Source of the DNA: Flavobacteriales bacterium
GTDB taxonomy: Bacteria; Bacteroidota; Bacteroidia; Flavobacteriales_F; PHOS-HE28
DNA: 45,903 nucleotides
Assembly: GCA_017987115.1 (NCBI GenBank)
Contig: JAGNUG010000019.1
Span: 1-45,903 of the forward strand
Reading direction: 5' to 3'
Under the pieces are notes generated by a model. That model saw only the letters and a list, made by a program, of their open reading frames with translations, was not told the origin of the DNA and searched no databases. Both the position numbers and the translations under genes were made by a program. Shown here one piece after another: positions 31,401 through 41,790 of this stretch (position 1 is the first letter of the stretch; each line of letters starts with the position of its first letter).

Positions 31401-32015
31401 ATGCTTAAGCAACTATTAGCGACCATAACGGTTATTATATTACCTCTTGTTTCACTCGCACAGAATAGCTCTTCCCTTGAAGCATTGGCTTCGATAATGG
31501 AAGGCAGCTATTCAAGTTCAGCGCAAGCCTTGCTCGACACCAACTACTTCAACATCGAATTGGAAATGGTTCGCATTTGGCCGGAGCGCATTGATGGGGC
31601 GTGGTTGTATGTAGAACAAGCAACAGCCGCGAATAAGGAAAAACCCTATCGCCAGCGGGTGTATCATGTTCAGCAAGTAAATGAAGACACATTCACAAGC
31701 GATATCCTTTCGATCAACAGTGGTGAGAAGTATTATGGCGCATACAAGGATCCGTTATTCCTCTCACAGATTTCTCCTGACTCGGTTGCAATGCTCAGTG
31801 GCTGCACGATCACGTTGACGCAGAAAGGCGACAACTATGTTGGCAGTACCAACGAACGTGATTGCAGTAATGCTTGGGGCAAGGCATCCTACGCAACCAG
31901 CGAAGTATCCATTTCTCCCGGGCTAATGGTTTCATGGGATCGCGGTTACAACGATGCTGGTGAACAGGTCTGGGGTGCAGAGAACGGAGGATATCACTTC
32001 GTGAAAAAGCCTTAA
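31401..32015 (+). CDS. CpcT/CpeT-like secreted protein
   Basis: A 204-residue protein with a signal peptide (about 1-20, ending SLAQ). The mature sequence follows the CpcT/CpeT family: MEGSYSSSAQA, RIWPERIDGAWLYVEQA, PYRQRVYHV, GCTITLTQKGDNYVGST, TSEVSISPGLMVSWDRGY and VWGAENGGYHF. In cyanobacteria this family attaches bilins to phycobiliproteins. This genome segment has no such partners, so the protein is presumably a homologue with a different small-ligand or envelope role (inference). It converges on the porP/sprF gene at 32030; the 14-base gap is part of a short inverted repeat. Confidence 0.8.
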   Translation: MLKQLLATITVIILPLVSLAQNSSSLEALASIMEGSYSSSAQALLDTNYFNIELEMVRIWPERIDGAWLYVEQATAANKEKPYRQRVYHVQQVNEDTFTSDILSINSGEKYYGAYKDPLFLSQISPDSVAMLSGCTITLTQKGDNYVGSTNERDCSNAWGKASYATSEVSISPGLMVSWDRGYNDAGEQVWGAENGGYHFVKKP

Positions 32016-32029
32016 CCGGCAACAGCGGT

Positions 32030-33091
32030 TCACATTGATCTATGCTTCGGCAATTTCATGCGTTTATCGCTGAACATACCGATCCATTGTAAGCTTACTT
32101 CCATGCCTCCGCGAAAGGTGGTCTGTGCGCGGAGCTTGCTGATGTTGACATCATAACTGAGGCCGGCCATCAACTTGCGTTTCCATTCGAATTGTAGGGC
32201 TGGAACAACAGCGTCCTTATATCTGTAGAAACAACCGAAATAGAAAGCCGACGAATTCTTGTCGGTCGTGTACCGGCTGTCTACTCCGATCCTGCGGTGC
32301 AACAAACCACCCACGTTGATCTCGCGGCTTGCACCTTGCTGCGCCAAGAAGAACTTCGGTAACCATATCCAACGTTCGCCTTCGATCCGCAATTCACCAT
32401 GCACCACATACCGGCGCAACAGACGATCCGAATTCGACCCGAACAAAGAGACCTTGGCTTGGTTCAAATGCATCACTGATGCACCTGCTTTCCAGCCGAT
32501 CCCGTTCTTCAACTCGCCTTTGCCAAGCACACCTGCACCAAAGTCGACGAAGGATGCACTACTGTTTGCAATGGACTCATTTGTCGGCAGATCAGGGTTG
32601 TATCCTGCGCCATTGTATTGGCTGTCCCACCGCATGCCATCGAGCACTCCACTGCGCTGTCCGTAGCCGCCTTGTAGACCGAATGCGATCAGGCTTTCCT
32701 CTCCGCTTTTGATCGCGTAGGAAACACTGAGGTTGGCCTGAGCATCTCCGAATCGCGTACTGCCTGCTTTGTCACTGAATGCGCTGACCCCGATACCAAG
32801 ATAGCGGCCATTACCGAGTTTCCCGGTAAGGACAGGTAGGTCGTAACTGAATGCATCCGTACGGAATGGACTACCTACACTGCGCCATTGCTCGCGGTGG
32901 ATCAGAACGAGTCGCTGATCACCTTCAATATCTCCAGCGTTCGCCGGATTGATCACGAGCGGTGCGTTGTAGAATTGACCAAAATGTATGTCTTGTCCGA
33001 AGAGCAGAACGCCAAGTAGCATTCCGGATATAAGTAGCGCAACGCGCAACATGATCGGAGCAACGTTCGATATGTTCATTGTTCCGGTCAT
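32030..33091 (-). CDS. PorP/SprF family type IX secretion membrane protein (second locus)
   Basis: A 353-residue protein. The signal peptide is best read from the internal Met (MLRVALLISGMLLGVLLFGQ); the mature part opens QDIHFGQFYNAPLVINPANAGD, the PorP/SprF hallmark, and continues as outer-membrane barrel sequence (GLSYDVNISKLR near the end). Its ATG at 33091 overlaps the stop of the upstream CHU_C gene (ATGA), the same arrangement as at 9906. It is the last gene of the seven-gene operon and probably anchors or exports the 1162-residue protein encoded just upstream. Confidence 0.9.
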   Translation of the reverse strand: MTGTMNISNVAPIMLRVALLISGMLLGVLLFGQDIHFGQFYNAPLVINPANAGDIEGDQRLVLIHREQWRSVGSPFRTDAFSYDLPVLTGKLGNGRYLGIGVSAFSDKAGSTRFGDAQANLSVSYAIKSGEESLIAFGLQGGYGQRSGVLDGMRWDSQYNGAGYNPDLPTNESIANSSASFVDFGAGVLGKGELKNGIGWKAGASVMHLNQAKVSLFGSNSDRLLRRYVVHGELRIEGERWIWLPKFFLAQQGASREINVGGLLHRRIGVDSRYTTDKNSSAFYFGCFYRYKDAVVPALQFEWKRKLMAGLSYDVNISKLRAQTTFRGGMEVSLQWIGMFSDKRMKLPKHRSM

Positions 33092-36000
33092 CGCACCAGA
33101 GTGATGTTACCTGTTCGTTGAATGTCTTCACCTTTCTCGGTCAGTGCGATCAAGGTGTATATGTAAACGCCACTTGCACCGGTCCTTCCATCAACGATGC
33201 CGTCCCAGCCATTGTCCATGCTATTTGTGCTGAACACGGAATTTCCCCAGCGATCGTATACCACGAACTCAAGTTCGATCACGGTCGGTGCGCGCACATA
33301 AAGCACATCATTGTTGCCATCGCCATTCGGACTGAAGACATCGGGAATGAACACCACATCACTACCGCGTATGCACATATCCAACGCCATCGAATCAACG
33401 CAGCTGCCTTCGTTCCAAACCACTAATTGCACTTGGTAGTAGCCCGCAACACCATGGTCATAATTCGGGTTGGTCCCATAGCTGTATGGAACAGTGTCCG
33501 CGTCCATCACCCAGTAACCGCCTACCGCATTATTGCTCAGGTCTATGAACGTAACATCCTTTTGATCGAAATCCACACACGATTCATTCGGATTGGCACT
33601 GAAGAGCGCCGTGATCGGTGGCCAACTGGGTACCTGTACCAAGCTGTCCGTGGCACAGCCCGTTTCATTGTTGGTCACTGTTACGAACGCCAATCCACCT
33701 GAAGGCAACGCGATGCTATCTCCTTGCAATTCGGAATCACCCACCTCCCAATCATAGTTGTATGTGCCGCTTCCTATCACGCTTCCAACAACATATCCAT
33801 CATCGCCATAACACTGCAAGGGCGGGAAATTGAACACCGGTGCAAAGGGCGGATGTACCACGATCGTAATACTGTCCAACACTGGACCACTGCATCCGTC
33901 AGTGGTCATTACCGTGTAGGTTGTTGTTGTAGAAGGCGAAACATTTTGCGAAGAAGCAGGAAATAATCCATGGTCCCATTGGTGGTTGATGATCGCTTCG
34001 GGATCGCCACCACTGGTTTGTACTTCGATGGAGCTGCCGCCACCTGCACAGATCGGATTGTTCAACACAACGAGCTGCGTTGTCAATGCCGGATGATCCG
34101 TAAAGAGCAATGTATCTGCACTGAGGCAGGCACCTGACCCTACTGAATAGATCAGTTCATAGTCACCATCAGCCAACGTCGAAGGATTGAATGTTGCGGA
34201 GTTGAGTCCCGTGAAATTGCCGCCTGTTGGCGAGAAGGTGATCGTTACATCCACATCGTTCGAGCAGTACATCGGTTGCACACCACCAAGTTGCGCTTGC
34301 TGGAAAGGAAGTACGCTTACGGATACAGAGTCGCTGCAACCCGCGGGTGTATCATAGTGGATCATGTGAGCGCCTTCACCTGCAGCAGCTGGATCGAAAA
34401 TGCCATTCTGATCAACACCATTTCCTGTGAACGTAGCACCCAGAGGCACGGTCGCGATGGCAAAGGGATCAACGTTGCTACAAATGGTCATATCAGAAAC
34501 GGATAATGAAGAAGGATGCACGATCGCCAACAAGGAATCGCCACAAGTGTTCGCATCGAAGTGCAATGTGTGAATTCCAACTCCAGCGAACTGAGGGTCG
34601 AAGAACCAGTCCTCATCAGCGTTCTGACTTATCGCTGTTCCGCTCCAACTTCCATCCCAAGGCGTACGACCGGTGCTTTCGCGATCCAACAGCAGCGCAT
34701 CATCTTCCGAACAAAAGAACAAGGTGTCGACATCCAACGTGGTATAACCGACCAGGATCCCGATCGTATCAACACAACCATTCGCCGCGAAGTAGAGCAG
34801 CTCATCCCATCCGTTTCCGGCCTGGACGGGATCATACGTTCCTACGGTCGCATCGACAATTCCTGCACCTGTCCAAACGCCACCAGGAGGGATCGCAACT
34901 GGGTCCAACGTGATCGGCGCGGGTTGCGATGGACATGCACTTCTGCTCGATCCGATATCGATCGGTTTCACATGGATCGTGAATTGCTCATCGCATCCAT
35001 GCAATGCGTATGTCAAAATGTGTGTACCTCCTTCCGCTTCATCGGCATCGAACGTGCCGCTCAATGAATCAACAATGCCCGAACCGTACCAACGTCCACC
35101 CCATGGTTGTACCGGAATATCGAACGGATAGGTACTCTGACAAACGGTATCAAGTTGTGTTTGTCCGGTGATATGGTCAACGTTGATCGTCTTCGTATCC
35201 GAACATGCTCCAGCTGTATACGTGACCACATACGAGCCCACAGTAGATGGATCGAACATACCATTCGGTTGAATGAACGGTCCGCTCCAAGTGCCGCCTT
35301 GCGGAGTATTATCGACGATCATAAAAGGTGCTGTTCCGGGACAAGCAGCTTCATCGAAACCTGCATCCATACTGTCCACGAGCAAGAGTATTGTGGCTTC
35401 GCAACCGCCGGGAATACCGTAATTCAGCACGTGGTTACCGGGACCCGCAGTATCTGGATCGAAGGTCCCTGAAATGCTGTCCAATATGCCCGCACCACTC
35501 CACCATCCTCCGGGAGGTGTGGCCGAAAGGTCGAACGCTTCGAGTGATTGACATACGTTGGCCGGGGCACCGTTTATCTGCGGATCGAGCACCACGATCA
35601 TTCGACTGTGTGTGGCCTGCGCCCCTGTTCCGTTCTCGGTTACAACAACAGTATAGGTGGTCGTTGAAGTTGGGCAAACACTGATCGGACCTTCAACAGG
35701 AGCTAGTCCATTATCCCAACTGTAGGTGTAGCTCAAGCAGCCGTTCACATCCGCCGATAAGTTCGCGCAAGACCCAGCGCAGATGGTATCGTTCGTAGCC
35801 ATCACTTCCACTGCAATTGGGCACGAAATGATCTGCGTGTTCGCGGTCAAAGTGAAGAACCAAAGTGAATCGCAACGATCACGTAAACCGATCCGGAACG
35901 AAACAGTGTATGGACAGTTCCTGACGAAGGCTGGATCCACGCTCAAGTTCATGGTCTGTGATTCACCACCTACGCACGACAACGGAGTTGCACCGGTTAC

Positions 36001-36576
36001 ACTTGGAGCCCCTTCACCAATGATCGTGAATGCGGAAGATGAAATGGAATCACACGGGATCGGATAACTGAATCGGATCCCAACGGCGCCACTATTGCAT
36101 GCAGGTGCAACGGGGATCGACATCACCGGCGGCACAGGTGGGTCAACGATGCTGGTCCATTGGGCTTCGAAACCGCAGTACGCTACAGTAGGGTCACTCA
36201 CAAAATGCACGGTCAAAACGCCGCTGGTCGCAACGATCGGCGGCGGAGCTATTGTACCGGAATACGCAGGACCGATCTGCGGCGAATTGATCGAAGGACC
36301 GTTATGGAAGGTGAGCAGATCATACCCCTGTTCCAAACAGAAAGTGGATGTGAAAACCAACGTGACCTGTGATCCTGCGTCGATGGTAAACACATGGTCT
36401 TCATTGTTCCCGTAGATATTTCCGCCAGGGCCATCCTCACTATCCAGCAGGATCCCTTTGCATATCGTTACCACGGTATCGCTCATGTTGAACTCCTGCA
36501 ACACTTGCGCATGTGCAACAGGGGTCAATGCGACCACGGATGCTAGTGCAATGTTGCGGATCATGTTCATGGCCAT
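33088..36576 (-). CDS. Large T9SS substrate: CUB domain, Ig-like repeats, CHU_C C-terminus
   Basis: About 1162 residues from ATG 36576; a TTG two codons earlier would overlap the preceding stop. A signal peptide ends VAHAQ. A CUB-like domain covers about 30-150 (YDLLTFHNGPS, then LTVHFVSDP). A series of short Ig-like modules follows, several with the recurring GGxWxGxGIxDxxxGTFDP pattern. The C-terminal about 85 residues are a CHU_C domain (IPDVFSPNGDGNNDVLYV, VYDRWGNSVF, WDGIVDGRTGASGVYIY). It should be exported by the T9SS and held at the surface; ligand unknown. It starts two bases after the upstream lipoprotein stop and is coupled to porP/sprF by ATGA. Confidence 0.9.
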   Translation of the reverse strand: MAMNMIRNIALASVVALTPVAHAQVLQEFNMSDTVVTICKGILLDSEDGPGGNIYGNNEDHVFTIDAGSQVTLVFTSTFCLEQGYDLLTFHNGPSINSPQIGPAYSGTIAPPPIVATSGVLTVHFVSDPTVAYCGFEAQWTSIVDPPVPPVMSIPVAPACNSGAVGIRFSYPIPCDSISSSAFTIIGEGAPSVTGATPLSCVGGESQTMNLSVDPAFVRNCPYTVSFRIGLRDRCDSLWFFTLTANTQIISCPIAVEVMATNDTICAGSCANLSADVNGCLSYTYSWDNGLAPVEGPISVCPTSTTTYTVVVTENGTGAQATHSRMIVVLDPQINGAPANVCQSLEAFDLSATPPGGWWSGAGILDSISGTFDPDTAGPGNHVLNYGIPGGCEATILLLVDSMDAGFDEAACPGTAPFMIVDNTPQGGTWSGPFIQPNGMFDPSTVGSYVVTYTAGACSDTKTINVDHITGQTQLDTVCQSTYPFDIPVQPWGGRWYGSGIVDSLSGTFDADEAEGGTHILTYALHGCDEQFTIHVKPIDIGSSRSACPSQPAPITLDPVAIPPGGVWTGAGIVDATVGTYDPVQAGNGWDELLYFAANGCVDTIGILVGYTTLDVDTLFFCSEDDALLLDRESTGRTPWDGSWSGTAISQNADEDWFFDPQFAGVGIHTLHFDANTCGDSLLAIVHPSSLSVSDMTICSNVDPFAIATVPLGATFTGNGVDQNGIFDPAAAGEGAHMIHYDTPAGCSDSVSVSVLPFQQAQLGGVQPMYCSNDVDVTITFSPTGGNFTGLNSATFNPSTLADGDYELIYSVGSGACLSADTLLFTDHPALTTQLVVLNNPICAGGGSSIEVQTSGGDPEAIINHQWDHGLFPASSQNVSPSTTTTYTVMTTDGCSGPVLDSITIVVHPPFAPVFNFPPLQCYGDDGYVVGSVIGSGTYNYDWEVGDSELQGDSIALPSGGLAFVTVTNNETGCATDSLVQVPSWPPITALFSANPNESCVDFDQKDVTFIDLSNNAVGGYWVMDADTVPYSYGTNPNYDHGVAGYYQVQLVVWNEGSCVDSMALDMCIRGSDVVFIPDVFSPNGDGNNDVLYVRAPTVIELEFVVYDRWGNSVFSTNSMDNGWDGIVDGRTGASGVYIYTLIALTEKGEDIQRTGNITLVR

Positions 36577-36578
36577 GT

Positions 36579-37031
36579 TCAAATACTATCCTGCGGAAGG
36601 ATCGTGATCATTGGTGTTACGATCTCATTGCTCCTATTCCCAGCGCGATCGATCACATGGAACGAATACGTCATTTGCTCTTCGGTTCCGTTGCCCAATA
36701 GGAATAAAGGAGAAAGCTGCACTTCCAATTCTCCCTTGATCGCCAACTCAGTATCGGGCGGCGCTAATGGAATGATGTGATACCCATCCGCGGTATTCAA
36801 TCGGCTGTCCTTTACCCACAACGAGTGATCATCCGGATCATCCCTTCCAAGATCACCATCGCCATCCTCGTAACTGAAACGTAGAACAACCGGTTGCTGG
36901 AATTCGATCACTGTAGAAGGGCCGACCGAGATCAGTTCGACCGATGGTTCGCGCGGTATGATGTCCACAACCTCCTTCTTACAAGCCGCAAGAAAACAGA
37001 CCACTACAAGCAGGGATGCGAACTTTCTCAT
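36579..37031 (-). CDS. Small outer-membrane-type lipoprotein
   Basis: A 150-residue protein with lipobox FLAAC at Cys17, followed by KKE. The mature part is one predicted beta domain (VVLRFSYEDGDGDLGRDD, then MTYSFHVIDRAGNRSNE). The acidic DGDGDLG stretch could bind calcium and recalls cadherin-like or thrombospondin-like loops (inference). No named family is recognised. It is sandwiched by a 4-base ATGA overlap with the cytochrome-like gene and a 2-base gap to the CUB/CHU_C gene, so it belongs to the same transcript and probably the same complex. Confidence 0.82.
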   Translation of the reverse strand: MRKFASLLVVVCFLAACKKEVVDIIPREPSVELISVGPSTVIEFQQPVVLRFSYEDGDGDLGRDDPDDHSLWVKDSRLNTADGYHIIPLAPPDTELAIKGELEVQLSPLFLLGNGTEEQMTYSFHVIDRAGNRSNEIVTPMITILPQDSI

Positions 37032-37969
37032 GATGCGATCCGAAAGGTGAAGTAGTTCAACATCGGTGCCGTGGTGCCATCGTTCGGGATCTCAGTTGGA
37101 GCGGAATGAGCGCCATCGTCAACGTAAACACGTACGAAGAGTACGGTGCCCGGTGAATACGCACCAAGCTGTAATTGAACCTTATGCGTAAACGTTGTGG
37201 CGGTGTTGCCAAGATCCGGACCGGACACTGAGTTCGAAGTGATCAACGTTAGCTCTGGAACGGTTCCGAATTCACTTATCGTTGTTGCCACTTTCACTTT
37301 GTTATACGTGAGAGCATTGCTCGCTGTCTCATCATCGGAAAAGGCAAACCAGAGGTCGATAGCAGAACCAGATACTTCGATCGGCTGTACACCTTCCCCA
37401 TCGCCGCGTGGGAACGCGTTATTTGTTGCACCTGCAGCAAACGCAAGGACACCGATCACTTGTGGTTCCAGATTCCCCGGTGTGGGTGTGTTGCCGAACA
37501 TGTCCTTTGCACCGGATGCGATCCAATTGTTTATCACTGCACGATAGGCATTACTATTCGCTGGCCAGTCTGAGTCAGCGGTCAGTTCCAACGGCATTAT
37601 GCCTGAAGTGTTCGGCACGAAGACCGTCAACCGTTCATGCAGGAACGATCCATCCACATCACCAGGAACAACACGATAGGTAAAGCTCCCTTGAGGGGTG
37701 TTGGCGATCGTTGGGTGATAGACCAACGAGTTATATGCGCTTCCAATGGATCGGAATTCCGGTTCAAAATTGCCGTCGTGGCATCCACTCACGGCGCAAC
37801 TAGGCCGAAGTATTTTTTGATGGATCCACGCAAAGTTGTCCTGCGGAATATTCTCTACCGTTGGGTTTGGTGAACCCCGTTCCAACTCGTCGTAAGGATT
37901 TGGCGTGTCCTTCTTGCATGCTGCGATCGCAAGAACAATTAGTAATATGATGATCCAGGTACCGCGCAT
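37028..37969 (-). CDS. Cytochrome-c-like lipoprotein with CX4CH motif
   Basis: A 313-residue lipoprotein: lipobox AIAAC at Cys18, then KKD. Residues 45-165 resemble planctomycete-type cytochrome c modules: FAWIHQKILRPSC, GCHDG, RVVPGDVDGSFL, GIMPLEL (possible distal Met) and AVINNWIASGAKD. The heme site reads C58-AVSG-C63-H64, four residues between cysteines where classical c-type cytochromes have two. The C-terminal half is a separate beta-rich domain (IEVSGSAIDLWFAFSDDET). It either carries heme attached in a non-standard way or is a heme-less relative. It lies 3 bases after the DUF1501-like gene. Confidence 0.78.
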   Translation of the reverse strand: MRGTWIIILLIVLAIAACKKDTPNPYDELERGSPNPTVENIPQDNFAWIHQKILRPSCAVSGCHDGNFEPEFRSIGSAYNSLVYHPTIANTPQGSFTYRVVPGDVDGSFLHERLTVFVPNTSGIMPLELTADSDWPANSNAYRAVINNWIASGAKDMFGNTPTPGNLEPQVIGVLAFAAGATNNAFPRGDGEGVQPIEVSGSAIDLWFAFSDDETASNALTYNKVKVATTISEFGTVPELTLITSNSVSGPDLGNTATTFTHKVQLQLGAYSPGTVLFVRVYVDDGAHSAPTEIPNDGTTAPMLNYFTFRIAS

Positions 37970-37972
37970 GAC

Positions 37973-39304
37973 TCAGATCCGATCGAACAATGATTGTGTG
38001 CCAGGCTCCAGGAATCCAGCGCTCAAGACTTCATTCTTCACACCAAGGATCTCCGCGATCGTAGGTACCACATCGGTCACGATACCAACCGGATCGTCCT
38101 CACTACCGATACTCAGGTTCGATGGAACACTTGCGCCGGCCATCATGCCGAAGACGCGTAACGAATTACTGTCGCTGTGATCGAACGAGTACCAATCATT
38201 TTGATCTTGGATCGCATTGGGTTCCGAATTGCGGCCGCATTCCGGAATGGCGATCACTACAGTATTGTTCGCCATCTCTGGGATGTTATTGTTGATGTAA
38301 TCCCACACATGTGCAACGGCGTGATCAGCGCGATGAAGTGCCGCGAGATAACCGGTGAAGCTGCTGTGGCATCCATCCACGCCGCTCATGTTCACCACGG
38401 TAAGCGCGGGTTTGAACCACTTCATCACTTCGCATGCATAACCAACTGTTGTTAGGTCACCACTGTCGTGAACAGGTGGATGCGCGATGGTACCGTTGTG
38501 CGTTTTGGTGAACATTTCAGACATGAACGCCTTGATATCCTGCTTCTCTTCCGGTGTGTTCCCGATGCTTGTTGGTACTGATCCCAAGTGCTCGAAACTA
38601 TTATCGAGGAAGGATTTCATTTCGTAGATCGGTGCCAACTGATCTTGCGGATGATACACTTTAGCATCGGAGAGGTATTGATCCCCTGGAGGTCCGAACG
38701 TGATATTGGGAGCGAAGAAATTTGCGCCATATTGAGCGCCGTAATTCGGATGGATGCTGTAGTTCAGCAACGGTACGCTATTCCCGATCGAGTTGCCAAT
38801 GAACCAGGTCTTACTGGCCGGCACACCGCCATGTCGACGGAGATACTCGAAGATCGTTGGATTCAATGGTTTCTGTTGAAGACCTTGCGTCGCCGCCGTA
38901 TTTCCTTGCAACAACGAATTCAATCCACCATAGTGGCCAGCACTAACGGCACGCATCTCACGGAAAAGTGTGCCTTGTTGTTGTAGCGTTTGGCCAAGGA
39001 TCGGTTGAATGGGATTGATACCACCCAGACCTGTACCGTAAACGATCTTCTGTGGCGGAGGAGCACCGTCCAACATATTGTACATGATGTTGCCTTCGGT
39101 GGGGTCGCTTTGGCTATCACTGAGATAGCGTTGCAACACACTTTCCTGTTGGCGAACACCGCCGGCGAACAACACGAATACAACGTGCTGCGCTAGCTGC
39201 GCCCCGGAGGCGGCAAACAAGCGACCACTTGGCAGGATGTAAGGTGCAGCGATCAATCCCGCCGCCGCGGCACCCGTTCGTTTTATGAATTTTCTGCGGT
39301 TCAT
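37973..39304 (-). CDS. DUF1501-like protein with Tat signal
   Basis: A 443-residue protein with a twin-arginine signal, NRRKFIKRTGAAAAGLIAAP. The body follows the DUF1501 / alkaline-phosphatase-like pattern: VVFVLFAGGVRQQE, AVSAGHYGGLNSLLQGN, VVNMSGVDGCHSSFTGYLAA, HRADHAVAHVWDYI, VVIAIPECGRNSEPN and IVTDVVPTIAEILGV near the end. In Planctomycetes and Bacteroidota DUF1501 proteins are commonly encoded next to cytochrome-like/DUF1549 partners, which agrees with the neighbours here. Enzymatic activity is unproven. Folded Tat export fits a metal- or cofactor-containing protein (inference). Confidence 0.85.
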   Translation of the reverse strand: MNRRKFIKRTGAAAAGLIAAPYILPSGRLFAASGAQLAQHVVFVLFAGGVRQQESVLQRYLSDSQSDPTEGNIMYNMLDGAPPPQKIVYGTGLGGINPIQPILGQTLQQQGTLFREMRAVSAGHYGGLNSLLQGNTAATQGLQQKPLNPTIFEYLRRHGGVPASKTWFIGNSIGNSVPLLNYSIHPNYGAQYGANFFAPNITFGPPGDQYLSDAKVYHPQDQLAPIYEMKSFLDNSFEHLGSVPTSIGNTPEEKQDIKAFMSEMFTKTHNGTIAHPPVHDSGDLTTVGYACEVMKWFKPALTVVNMSGVDGCHSSFTGYLAALHRADHAVAHVWDYINNNIPEMANNTVVIAIPECGRNSEPNAIQDQNDWYSFDHSDSNSLRVFGMMAGASVPSNLSIGSEDDPVGIVTDVVPTIAEILGVKNEVLSAGFLEPGTQSLFDRI

Positions 39305-39341
39305 GGTTGTTCTACTAGTTGTTCCGATCCCAGGTACGGGG

Positions 39342-39845
39342 TCAGTAGAATAAATACTCCTCGCTTAATGCGAAAGAGAAGTAGATGAGTTCAGGTGTCA
39401 CATTCGGGTCCGCCGTGATCTTATTACGGAACCAGGTCTTTTCGGCCTCGGTAGGGTTACGTACCAAGAACCGGTTGTACGTGGCAGTGATGAACACATC
39501 AAGATCCGCATTCATTTCAGCAGCTGTCGGGATCTGCACACCGGGTTTGTTCATGAAGTTGCTGATGATCACTTCGCGCGCCAACTGCTTGTCTCCAATA
39601 CTTTGGATGCACTGATCAATTTTGTACAGATCGTTCGGTGATAGCGCGGTCTGAAACAGGTTCGCGTGCAGGATCGCTGCATACTCCTGGTTGGATTTTT
39701 CGCGATCCTTAACACCATCATTCAAGTCCAGATCGACCGGATCAAGCTCGTAGACGAACAGGTCTTTCTTACAACCGGTCATTAGCAGCGCGACCCCTAG
39801 GAGCATTGCCACCGATCGTAGTATGGATGTTGTGTTGTGTTGCAT
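39342..39845 (-). CDS. Lipoprotein with FLxRxP/SEEY motif
   Basis: A 167-residue lipoprotein: lipobox LMTGC at Cys25 followed by KKD. The C-terminal 60 residues contain TYNRFLVRNPTEAEKTWF and then FALSEEYLFY. The same FLxRxP...S(D/E)EY layout appears in the C-terminal part of the upstream lipoprotein, and DUF1549/DUF4214-type proteins have comparable LLGRxP motifs, so the two may be paralogous halves. No catalytic motif is recognised. It lies 37 bases upstream of the DUF1501-like gene and 19 bases downstream of the next lipoprotein gene. Confidence 0.78.
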   Translation of the reverse strand: MQHNTTSILRSVAMLLGVALLMTGCKKDLFVYELDPVDLDLNDGVKDREKSNQEYAAILHANLFQTALSPNDLYKIDQCIQSIGDKQLAREVIISNFMNKPGVQIPTAAEMNADLDVFITATYNRFLVRNPTEAEKTWFRNKITADPNVTPELIYFSFALSEEYLFY

Positions 39846-39864
39846 GGCGATCTATTCCAAATCC

Positions 39865-40809
39865 TCAGTTAGCGCTATTACTCAGACCAGCATATTCATC
39901 GCTGATCAGGATGGTCCGTTGAAGTCGTTGGAAGTCATGGTCACTTTGATATGTTGTTGTGATCTGATAGGATTCGAACGTTGAAGGATCACGGCCTAGG
40001 AAGGACCGGTAGCAGAACCTTACCAGACCTTCATTTCCTTCGGGGCTGTTCACCAGAATATCCAGATACCCGGACTTGTTCTGTGCGCTTGCACCAAAGA
40101 GAATCGCGCTCGCGTTGTACTCTACCATTGTGAACCCGGCGGTGAATTCCGCGTTGGTCGGATACCGGAACAACATGTTGTCGAACGACGCATTCACGAA
40201 ATTGAATGAATTCATATTGATGAAGTCGAACACTGAATTGAACATCATGCGCTTCACCACTTCGTTCGCTGTGATCAACCCATCACGGTGATCAACACGG
40301 GCATTCTTCAAGCGAAGCAATTTCTGTAATGTGCTGTTGCTTTCGCTTGCACCTTGCGCATTGCCGCTCAATGAATCCGCAAGAGCAGCTTGTTGGGCGT
40401 CACTGATGTAACCATCAATAACATCATCGCTCACTCCTTCCAGAAAACGCGCTTTGAAAGACCCATAGAGACGTTGGTGATAAGCTTCCTTGTACGACGA
40501 ATCACCTTGCACGAATGCCGTGCTGGTCATCAACTTATTCACCAAAGAGACACGCGCATCACTATTCAGTCCCGCGTTCTCCAGGTCGGCTACTTCTGCA
40601 TCCATCTCGGCATCCACCGGTTCGCGGCCCAAGAGATCGATGAACAGCCGGTTCACGTAATTCCGTGTCACCACGGTCGGTACACCATCGTAGTCAGGTG
40701 CCACATTGTCCGGGCGAACTTCCAACTCCTGTTTCTTGCAGGCCGAACATATCAACACGGCCAGAAGTACTGGCAGGTGGTTCGTTCGGAAGGTGTGCGT
40801 CGTTGACAT
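39865..40809 (-). CDS. DUF1549/DUF4214-like lipoprotein, first gene of the seven-gene operon
   Basis: A 314-residue lipoprotein; the lipid cysteine is Cys24 (LICSAC) followed by KKQE. Near the N-terminus it has RNYVNRLFIDLLGREPVDAE, the type of motif that opens DUF1549-like modules. Near the C-terminus it has CYRSFLGRDPS and ILISDEYAGL. The protein therefore seems to hold two copies of an LLGRxP/SxEY unit. DUF1549-type proteins are typical companions of DUF1501 and planctomycete cytochromes. Function is unknown. I could not find a confident promoter in the 250 bases upstream. Confidence 0.75.
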   Translation of the reverse strand: MSTTHTFRTNHLPVLLAVLICSACKKQELEVRPDNVAPDYDGVPTVVTRNYVNRLFIDLLGREPVDAEMDAEVADLENAGLNSDARVSLVNKLMTSTAFVQGDSSYKEAYHQRLYGSFKARFLEGVSDDVIDGYISDAQQAALADSLSGNAQGASESNSTLQKLLRLKNARVDHRDGLITANEVVKRMMFNSVFDFINMNSFNFVNASFDNMLFRYPTNAEFTAGFTMVEYNASAILFGASAQNKSGYLDILVNSPEGNEGLVRFCYRSFLGRDPSTFESYQITTTYQSDHDFQRLQRTILISDEYAGLSNSAN

Positions 40810-41062: not shown

Positions 41063-41098
41063 GGGAAACGCCCCGTGATGACCACAGGGCGTTCTTCC
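41063..41098 (-). terminator. Rho-independent terminator
   Basis: Read on the minus strand, AACGCCC (41093-41087) pairs with GGGCGTT (41073-41067). The inner GTG/CAC extends the stem with one mismatch around a short loop. It is followed by TCCCTTTTT. It would end transcripts coming from the 41220-41372 region. Confidence 0.7.
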
Positions 41099-41219: not shown

Positions 41220-41372
41220 TCAACGATTAACCGCGATCTCCGCTTCGGAGGAATTTTGATCCGAAGGTGGTTCGTAGGTCACAACAACAATGGCGAGAAG
41301 CGCCGCTATAGCAGCCGCTTGTATCATGGTGAGGTATTTCGGTTCCATGGTGAATTGTTCTAATTGGTTCAT
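41220..41372 (-). CDS. Possible 50-residue single-pass membrane peptide
   Basis: From ATG 41372 the frame runs 50 codons to TGA at 41220. Residues 14-33 form one hydrophobic helix (LTMIQAAAIAALLAIVVVTY), flanked by a short polar N-terminus (MNQLEQFTMEPK) and an acidic tail (EPPSDQNSSEAEIAVNR). Met9 and Met16 are alternative starts. The polar-helix-polar organisation and a terminator about 120 bases downstream support a real small gene; no family is recognised. Confidence 0.45.
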   Translation of the reverse strand: MNQLEQFTMEPKYLTMIQAAAIAALLAIVVVTYEPPSDQNSSEAEIAVNR

Positions 41373-41502: not shown

Positions 41503-41790
41503 TCATGGTGTCAAATAACCTTTGATCGAATCCACATACGTTCCGAACGCAGCAGCCCCCTTAGGCGATATGGAACATGTGGTAAGCGGATAATTATCAC
41601 GGAAACCTTTCTTAACACGAACGTATCCCGCTTCCTTCAGCTTGCTGATCTGCACGCTGAGGTTACCTCGCGTTGCACCTGTTTGCTCGAGGAGCCACGT
41701 GAAATCGGCGTGCTCAACACCTACCAATAAGCTCATTACTGCAAGTCGAAGCTGATTGTGCAATACCGGGTCCAAAGGTTCAAACGCCAT
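41503..41790 (-). CDS. Winged-helix transcriptional regulator (HTH_34-like)
   Basis: A 95-residue protein consisting almost only of a winged helix: DPVLHNQLRLAVMSLL, DFTWLLEQTGATRGNLSVQ (helix-turn-helix), HxxKLKEAGYVRVKKGF-like recognition and wing, and PLTTCSISPKGAAAF. This matches the compact MarR-like HTH_34 family common in Bacteroidota. It overlaps the membrane-protein gene by 11 bases and is co-transcribed with it, so it probably controls its own operon through the palindrome at 42377-42388 (inference). Confidence 0.88.
   Translation of the reverse strand: MAFEPLDPVLHNQLRLAVMSLLVGVEHADFTWLLEQTGATRGNLSVQISKLKEAGYVRVKKGFRDNYPLTTCSISPKGAAAFGTYVDSIKGYLTP

Follow-up and report, generated by a model that had tools for sequence, protein, structure and literature searches.

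A predicted cell-envelope gene cassette of Bacteroidia that resembles the PSCyt/DUF1501 pair split into lipoprotein-anchored parts

A conserved gene cassette of Bacteroidia, tied to the type IX secretion system (T9SS), resembles the PSCyt1-PSCyt2-PSD1 + DUF1501 pair, with the domains split over separate genes and anchored through lipoproteins. We describe it in a stretch of 45,903 nucleotides from a Flavobacteriales bacterium (contig JAGNUG010000019.1 of assembly GCA_017987115.1; hereafter the window), in which seven open reading frames (ORFs) on the minus strand, transcribed from g1 to g7, occupy positions 32030-40809 (Table 1). The reading is suggested by profile and fold comparisons of unequal strength, in which g4 is PSCyt1-like, g1 and g2 carry helical domains resembling PSCyt2, PSD1 and DUF4214, and g3 has DUF1501-like features. 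That the genes form a unit with this kinship is in our judgement quite probable. The explanation as a whole, a cell-envelope cassette of Bacteroidia that is kin to the PSCyt/DUF1501 proteins and acts as a polymer-processing surface complex, has slightly less than an even chance.

The PSCyt and DUF1501 families abound in Planctomycetes and Verrucomicrobia and are still unsolved. A compact version from Bacteroidia, in which the domains are encoded by separate genes, offers separable subunits for deletion and pull-down experiments and thereby a new way into the planctomycete pairs; its natural presence and absence at one site adds to this usefulness. Moreover, the lipoproteins and the T9SS connect the PSCyt/DUF1501 family to the outer surface.

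Conservation and distribution of the cassette

A scan of GTDB genomes anchored on g3 yielded 26 loci with 37-90% identity. Wherever the contig reaches, g1-g2-g3-g4-g5 are adjacent and in the same order, with one near-exception among the most distant loci (L042), where g2-g3 are present and g4 and g5 were not recognised. A second test, anchored on g1, was independent of g3 and able to reveal g1 standing alone. In a sample of the class, g1 was found in 89 of 395 Bacteroidia genomes (72/339 good ones; 53/196 genera). Of these loci, 40 were read, with one ending at a contig edge. All 39 informative loci carry g1 to g5 on one strand, and at none of them does g1 occur apart from g2-g5. A preliminary description of the window had named homologues occurring separately in most genomes as the result that would speak against it; the opposite was observed. 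In a sample of the phylum, g1 was present in just 2 of 326 genomes, probably due to the families that happened to be drawn, which the class sample corrects.

The flanks of the cassettes are mostly unrelated between loci, and its boundaries are therefore sharp. The gene order is kept down to about 30-40% identity in many families, and in all seven genes the nonsynonymous divergence (dN) lies far below a saturated or near-saturated synonymous divergence (dS), so that the seven genes are not chance ORFs. Thus, g1 to g5 are shown to be an invariant core that is passed on and maintained in fixed order as a single unit. Domains resembling g4 and g5 are also found elsewhere, in other contexts. The seven-gene form is one local version of the cassette: the seven-gene machine of the preliminary description stands as one unit with g1-g5 as its core, while g6 is limited to the type I cassettes described below and g7 to few lineages.

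Presence and absence at a fixed site

In the genus to which the window belongs, g3 is carried by 17 of 45 genomes. In carriers that have IspG on the same contig, g3 lies a few kilobases from IspG, always at one site. Eight non-carriers were read: in five, HTH_34 and CpeT/IspG adjoin each other and all seven genes are missing from between them, and in the remaining three the site is rearranged. Within the genus, all seven genes come and go together, at a single fixed site. On the IspG tree, carriage of the cassette needs at least seven changes, a count in which some non-carriers are incomplete genomes. Furthermore, genome G023 lies near the base of the genus on the g3 tree, yet its IspG is close to that of non-carriers. 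This conflict suggests that the cassette may also have been exchanged between species at the fixed site. In G023 itself (L085, 4609-13244), the cassette seems older or foreign relative to IspG. One non-carrier (L080, 3200-13225) holds about 10 kb of other genes at the cassette site, among them a transposase-like ORF and a gene for a cation ATPase.

Two types of cassette and the link to type IX secretion

In the window, the CUB and CHU_C domains of g6 and the PorP_SprF domain of g7 score over their Pfam cut-offs, as the preliminary description had read them. Among 17 relatives of g6, CUB is present in 16 and CHU_C in all. The features of a type B T9SS pair were found as well: CHU_C/TIGR04131 and T9SS_PorP_fam are over cut-off, and the own genome encodes SprA. 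Proteins with type B C-terminal domains bind PorP-like proteins, which anchor them (PMC9143113), and known type B substrates are secreted and then held by a PorP/SprF partner (PMC12618676). By analogy with these known pairs, and with SprA encoded in the genome, g6 would be exported through the T9SS and retained by g7. In order and domains, g6-g7 resemble the SprB-SprF-type pair, in which a type B CHU_C substrate is followed downstream by a PorP/SprF shuttle (PMC12618676); in contrast to such pairs, g6-g7 are preceded by five lipoprotein/Tat (twin-arginine translocation) genes, and g7 is missing from most homologous cassettes.

The g1 loci fall into two types. In type I, comprising the 26 high-scoring loci, g6 directly follows g5 in 25 (exception L141). 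Type II comprises 13 lower-scoring loci with g1-g5 and without g6. Several genomes hold one cassette of each type (e.g. G370, G377, G408, G411, G418), and both apparently diverged anciently. L133 and L146, both in G418, exemplify the many Bacteroidia genomes with both types. An M20-type peptidase gene stands before several type II cassettes, which we read as ordinary synteny. A PorP/SprF gene after g6 was found solely in the genus of the window and at L025, L138, L155 and L164. Of the proposed link between the lipoprotein/DUF1501-like set and a T9SS pair, the part concerning g6 thus holds for type I, and the part concerning g7 fails at most loci.

This distribution bears on two other explanations. 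The first takes the locus for two unrelated adjoining operons, a lipoprotein/DUF1501-like set and a CHU_C/PorP pair, that are merely cotranscribed here. It would account for the absence of PorP from most type I loci and of g6 from type II. However, g6 comes right after g5 in nearly all type I loci, across many families and between otherwise unrelated flanks, and the seven genes are gained and lost together in the genus; we consider this explanation very unlikely. According to the second, g1 to g5 would assist the T9SS adhesin g6 in its secretion, folding or anchoring, with g4 or another member handling the disulphides or the anchoring of this cysteine-rich protein and the lipoproteins forming its surface base. 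The orthologous g6 partner in type I, the 34 cysteines of g6 and the anchoring of type B proteins by PorP-like proteins (PMC9143113) are in line with such a role. It is improbable, however, given that the 13 type II cassettes hold g1-g5 without g6 and that in known cases a PorP/SprF partner serves type B substrates with no such lipoproteins involved (PMC12618676).

The Tat-exported protein g3

The Tat signal of g3 was recognised over cut-off by TIGR01409. The AlphaFold2 model of g3 (mean predicted local distance difference test score 79, predicted template modelling score 0.83) gave hundreds of Foldseek matches and superposes on PafA with VIA Z 25.6 and 3.8 Å over 299 residues. Judged by this model, the predicted fold of g3 is that of the alkaline phosphatase superfamily. 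With PafA/SPAP and the Phosphodiest/Metalloenzyme proteins, g3 shares the fold and several metal-site positions; it differs from them in lacking the first Asp and the Thr nucleophile and has only 12-13% identity. According to a sequence alignment that includes relatives from the superfamily, the strand-1 Asp is replaced by Ala47/Gly48 and the position of the Thr nucleophile is taken by His124, both invariant in 24/24 members, so that none of the 24 has the strand-1 Asp ligand and Thr/Ser/Cys nucleophile of the superfamily. Moreover, H124, D310, H313, E355, R358, D375 and H376 are invariant among these members down to about 40% identity.

The resemblance of g3 to DUF1501 (PF07394) is remote. 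The window g3 does not match this family at the gathering cut-off of 27 bits, only one of the 24 members gave a match (E 0.2), and the over-cut-off match in the own genome is another gene. Membership of g3 in the Pfam family was therefore rejected. In profile-profile comparisons, g3 matched DUF1501 with E 2.2e-12 at full length including the Tat signal and with E 1.2e-5 (probability 81), over the C-terminal part alone, once the signals were removed. The strand-1 GG motif and the ExGR motif of g3 are like those of DUF1501. What had been called a Tat-exported DUF1501-like protein thus keeps its Tat export and its likeness and loses the family membership.

The lipoproteins

The lipobox Cys is clear in 23/23 relatives of g1, 23/25 of g2, 20/24 of g4 and 23/23 of g5, in agreement with the four lipoproteins of the preliminary description. 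From the lipoboxes and the practice of Bacteroidota it follows that g1, g2, g4 and g5 are predicted outer-membrane lipoproteins. Many members of each of the four families have C-K-K-(D/E), and the full C-X-K-(D/E)2, the surface export signal of Capnocytophaga canimorsus lipoproteins (PMC5080379), occurs in some only; the four proteins may be surface-exposed, although the signal is matched only in part. With signal peptides included, profile comparisons gave inflated similarities between lipoproteins (E 4e-6 for unrelated lipoprotein controls), and mature parts were used instead.

In g4, C58-x4-C63-H64 and M125-P126 are invariant, and the CX4CH motif noted in the preliminary description is present in 24/24 members. 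The motifs of PSCyt1 (PF07635), i.e. a cytochrome motif, a distal MP and WIxxGA, occur in g4 in this order, with CX4CH replacing CXXCH. Aligned by hhalign with the PSCyt1 part of fusion proteins, mature g4 gave E 6.3e-6, and CX4CH fell on CXXCH, MP on MP and WIxxGA on WIxxGA. The hidden Markov model of g4 also matches fusion PSCyt proteins (down to 3.9e-7). None of the 24 g4 members gave a Pfam match to PSCyt1. The C-terminal part of g4 is a beta-sandwich. The own genome encodes cytochrome-c assembly proteins. Standalone proteins of about 140-180 amino acids with a g4-like cytochrome domain occur in many Bacteroidota of the phylum sample (e.g. G252:C5:345156-345509) and may represent an unnamed cytochrome family.

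The best Pfam matches of g1 members are DUF4214 (2e-9), PBS_linker (1.6e-7), PSCyt2 (4.5e-5) and PSD1 (0.0023). DUF4214 (PF13946) was matched by 20/23 members of g1 and 22/25 of g2 (best 6.9e-7), with the window g1 and g2 themselves below cut-off. The cut-offs of PSCyt2 and PSD1 (PF07583/PF07587) were reached by neither family; for PSCyt2, the window g1 scored 16.3 bits against a cut-off of 29.8. Mature g1 aligned with the start of PSCyt2 (E 2.1e-4, probability 45) and with g2 (E 1e-4, probability 57). For g5, no sequence relative was found in the PDB; the protein is predicted to be beta-rich, judged by eye.

A further explanation regards g3 as a dead pseudo-enzyme and the cassette as a structural or adhesive scaffold without chemistry, in which CX4CH would form a disulphide and not a haem site. 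The loss of the first Asp and the His at the nucleophile position in all 24 members would fit this idea, as would the adhesin-like g6. However, the seven invariant residues of g3 suggest a kept site, and M125-P126 of g4 is invariant too, which fits a haem ligand and not a disulphide. We regard a scaffold of this kind as unlikely.

Relation to known systems and possible function

The pair that the cassette looks like occurs in Planctomycetes, Verrucomicrobia and some Bacteroidota and has the same domains side by side, together with an exported partner of the alkaline-phosphatase clan. For instance, a fusion protein at L076:8134-10566, in which PSCyt1, PSCyt2 and PSD1 all score over cut-off, lies beside a DUF1501 gene; the models of g1, g2 and g4 match the fusion and that of g3 its neighbour. 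In contrast to this pair, the cassette domains are separate small lipoproteins, CX4CH stands in place of CXXCH, g3 scores under the DUF1501 cut-off, and there are two additions, g5 and the T9SS protein g6. The genome of the window also encodes a DUF1800-DUF1501 pair (L075, contig C126, 4554-7798), whose DUF1501 protein bears a type A T9SS tail (Por_Secre_tail), which would bring a protein related to g3 to the surface. Like the cassette, this pair combines an exported DUF1501(-like) protein with a partner; unlike the cassette, it has neither cytochrome nor lipoproteins and its DUF1501 carries the tail. The g1 model gave no sequence match to DUF1800.

We propose that g1, g2, g4 and g5, located at the outer membrane, would form a scaffold for g3; g3 would be exported folded via Tat and may bind or cleave its substrate at a remodelled metal site, and g4 would be an electron carrier through a c-type haem. 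In type I, the T9SS-secreted g6, held by the PorP/SprF protein, would capture the substrate at the surface. The likeliest substrate would be an extracellular polymer, e.g. a polysaccharide. This guess comes from what is published on related proteins: carbohydrate-binding modules and neighbouring sulfatases accompany PSCyt genes (PMC5615132), and DUF1501/DUF1800 genes lie in operons with chitin synthase (PMC5122149). A polymer-processing function of the cassette is nevertheless doubtful. Slightly more doubtful still is the specific idea that g3, with His at the nucleophile position, and a CX4CH haem lipoprotein modify an extracellular polymer with the help of a T9SS capture arm, which would also explain the PSCyt/DUF1501 proteins of Planctomycetes.

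Several points weigh against our proposal. No substrate gene was found linked to the cassette, the flanks being random, and the PSCyt and DUF1501 relatives are themselves without known function (for the pair, see PMC5615132). The missing first Asp and nucleophile of g3 argue against ordinary hydrolysis, and mature g3 is closer to metalloenzyme/phosphodiesterase relatives (E 3e-23; chosen for matching g3) than to DUF1501. The likeness of g1 to PSCyt2 and of g2 to PSD1 is weak. Haem binding by g4 is putative and read from the CX4CH motif; in a fold search, the beta-sandwich filled the PDB matches listed and no cytochrome was among them, a search that used the whole model, not the cytochrome half alone, and is uninformative on that half.

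The open-licence papers searched contained no description of the cassette and no work joining DUF1501, Bacteroidetes and cytochrome, and PSCyt/DUF1501 proteins are termed uncharacterised there. The cassette seems to be undescribed; its PSCyt/DUF1501 kind is already known. A defence system was considered and rejected, as PADLOC gave no match.

Organisation of the locus

Table 1 Features of the cassette and its surroundings in the window
Feature	Position	Strand	Description
g1	39865..40809	-	314-aa lipoprotein, helical, two LLGRxP-type motifs (DUF4214 / phycobilisome-linker / PSCyt2-like)
g2	39342..39845	-	167-aa lipoprotein, C-terminal DUF4214-like domain, kin to C-terminal part of g1
g3	37973..39304	-	443-aa Tat-exported alkaline-phosphatase-superfamily protein, DUF1501-like; without canonical first Asp and nucleophile
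g4	37028..37969	-	313-aa lipoprotein; PSCyt1-like c-type cytochrome domain and C-terminal beta-sandwich
g5	36579..37031	-	150-aa lipoprotein, invariant acidic DxxGDxG motif
g6	33088..36582	-	Secreted protein; N-terminal CUB, Ig/PKD-like repeats, 34 Cys, C-terminal CHU_C / type B T9SS signal
g7	32030..33091	-	353-aa outer-membrane protein of the PorP/SprF family; presumed to shuttle or anchor g6; restricted to some lineages
Terminator-like hairpin	41066..41094	-	13 pairs and T tract; upstream of g1, 5' boundary
CpeT-family gene	31401..32015	+	Convergent; together with IspG one boundary of the fixed site; outside the unit
HTH_34 winged-helix gene	41503..41790	-	Other boundary of the fixed site; outside the unit

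The preliminary description had listed seven minus-strand genes with gaps of 37 bases or less, and all seven ORFs were found where it had placed them. The gaps measure 19 bases (g1/g2), 37 bases (g2/g3, the largest) and 3 bases (g3/g4). Of its several ATGA overlaps, two are genuine, g4/g5 (37028-37031) and g6/g7 (33088-33091); that of g5/g6 depends on a TTG start of g6 at 36582 alone. From this codon g6 would have 1164 amino acids, and 1162 from the in-frame ATG at 36576, which is the likelier start. As the hairpin lies between g1 and the genes upstream, the transcription unit probably begins downstream of it. A possible small ORF of about 50 codons is present right before the hairpin (41220-41370, minus strand). 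The gene beside ispG is a case of a CpeT/CpcT-family gene in a Bacteroidota; this family is known from cyanobacterial bilin lyases.

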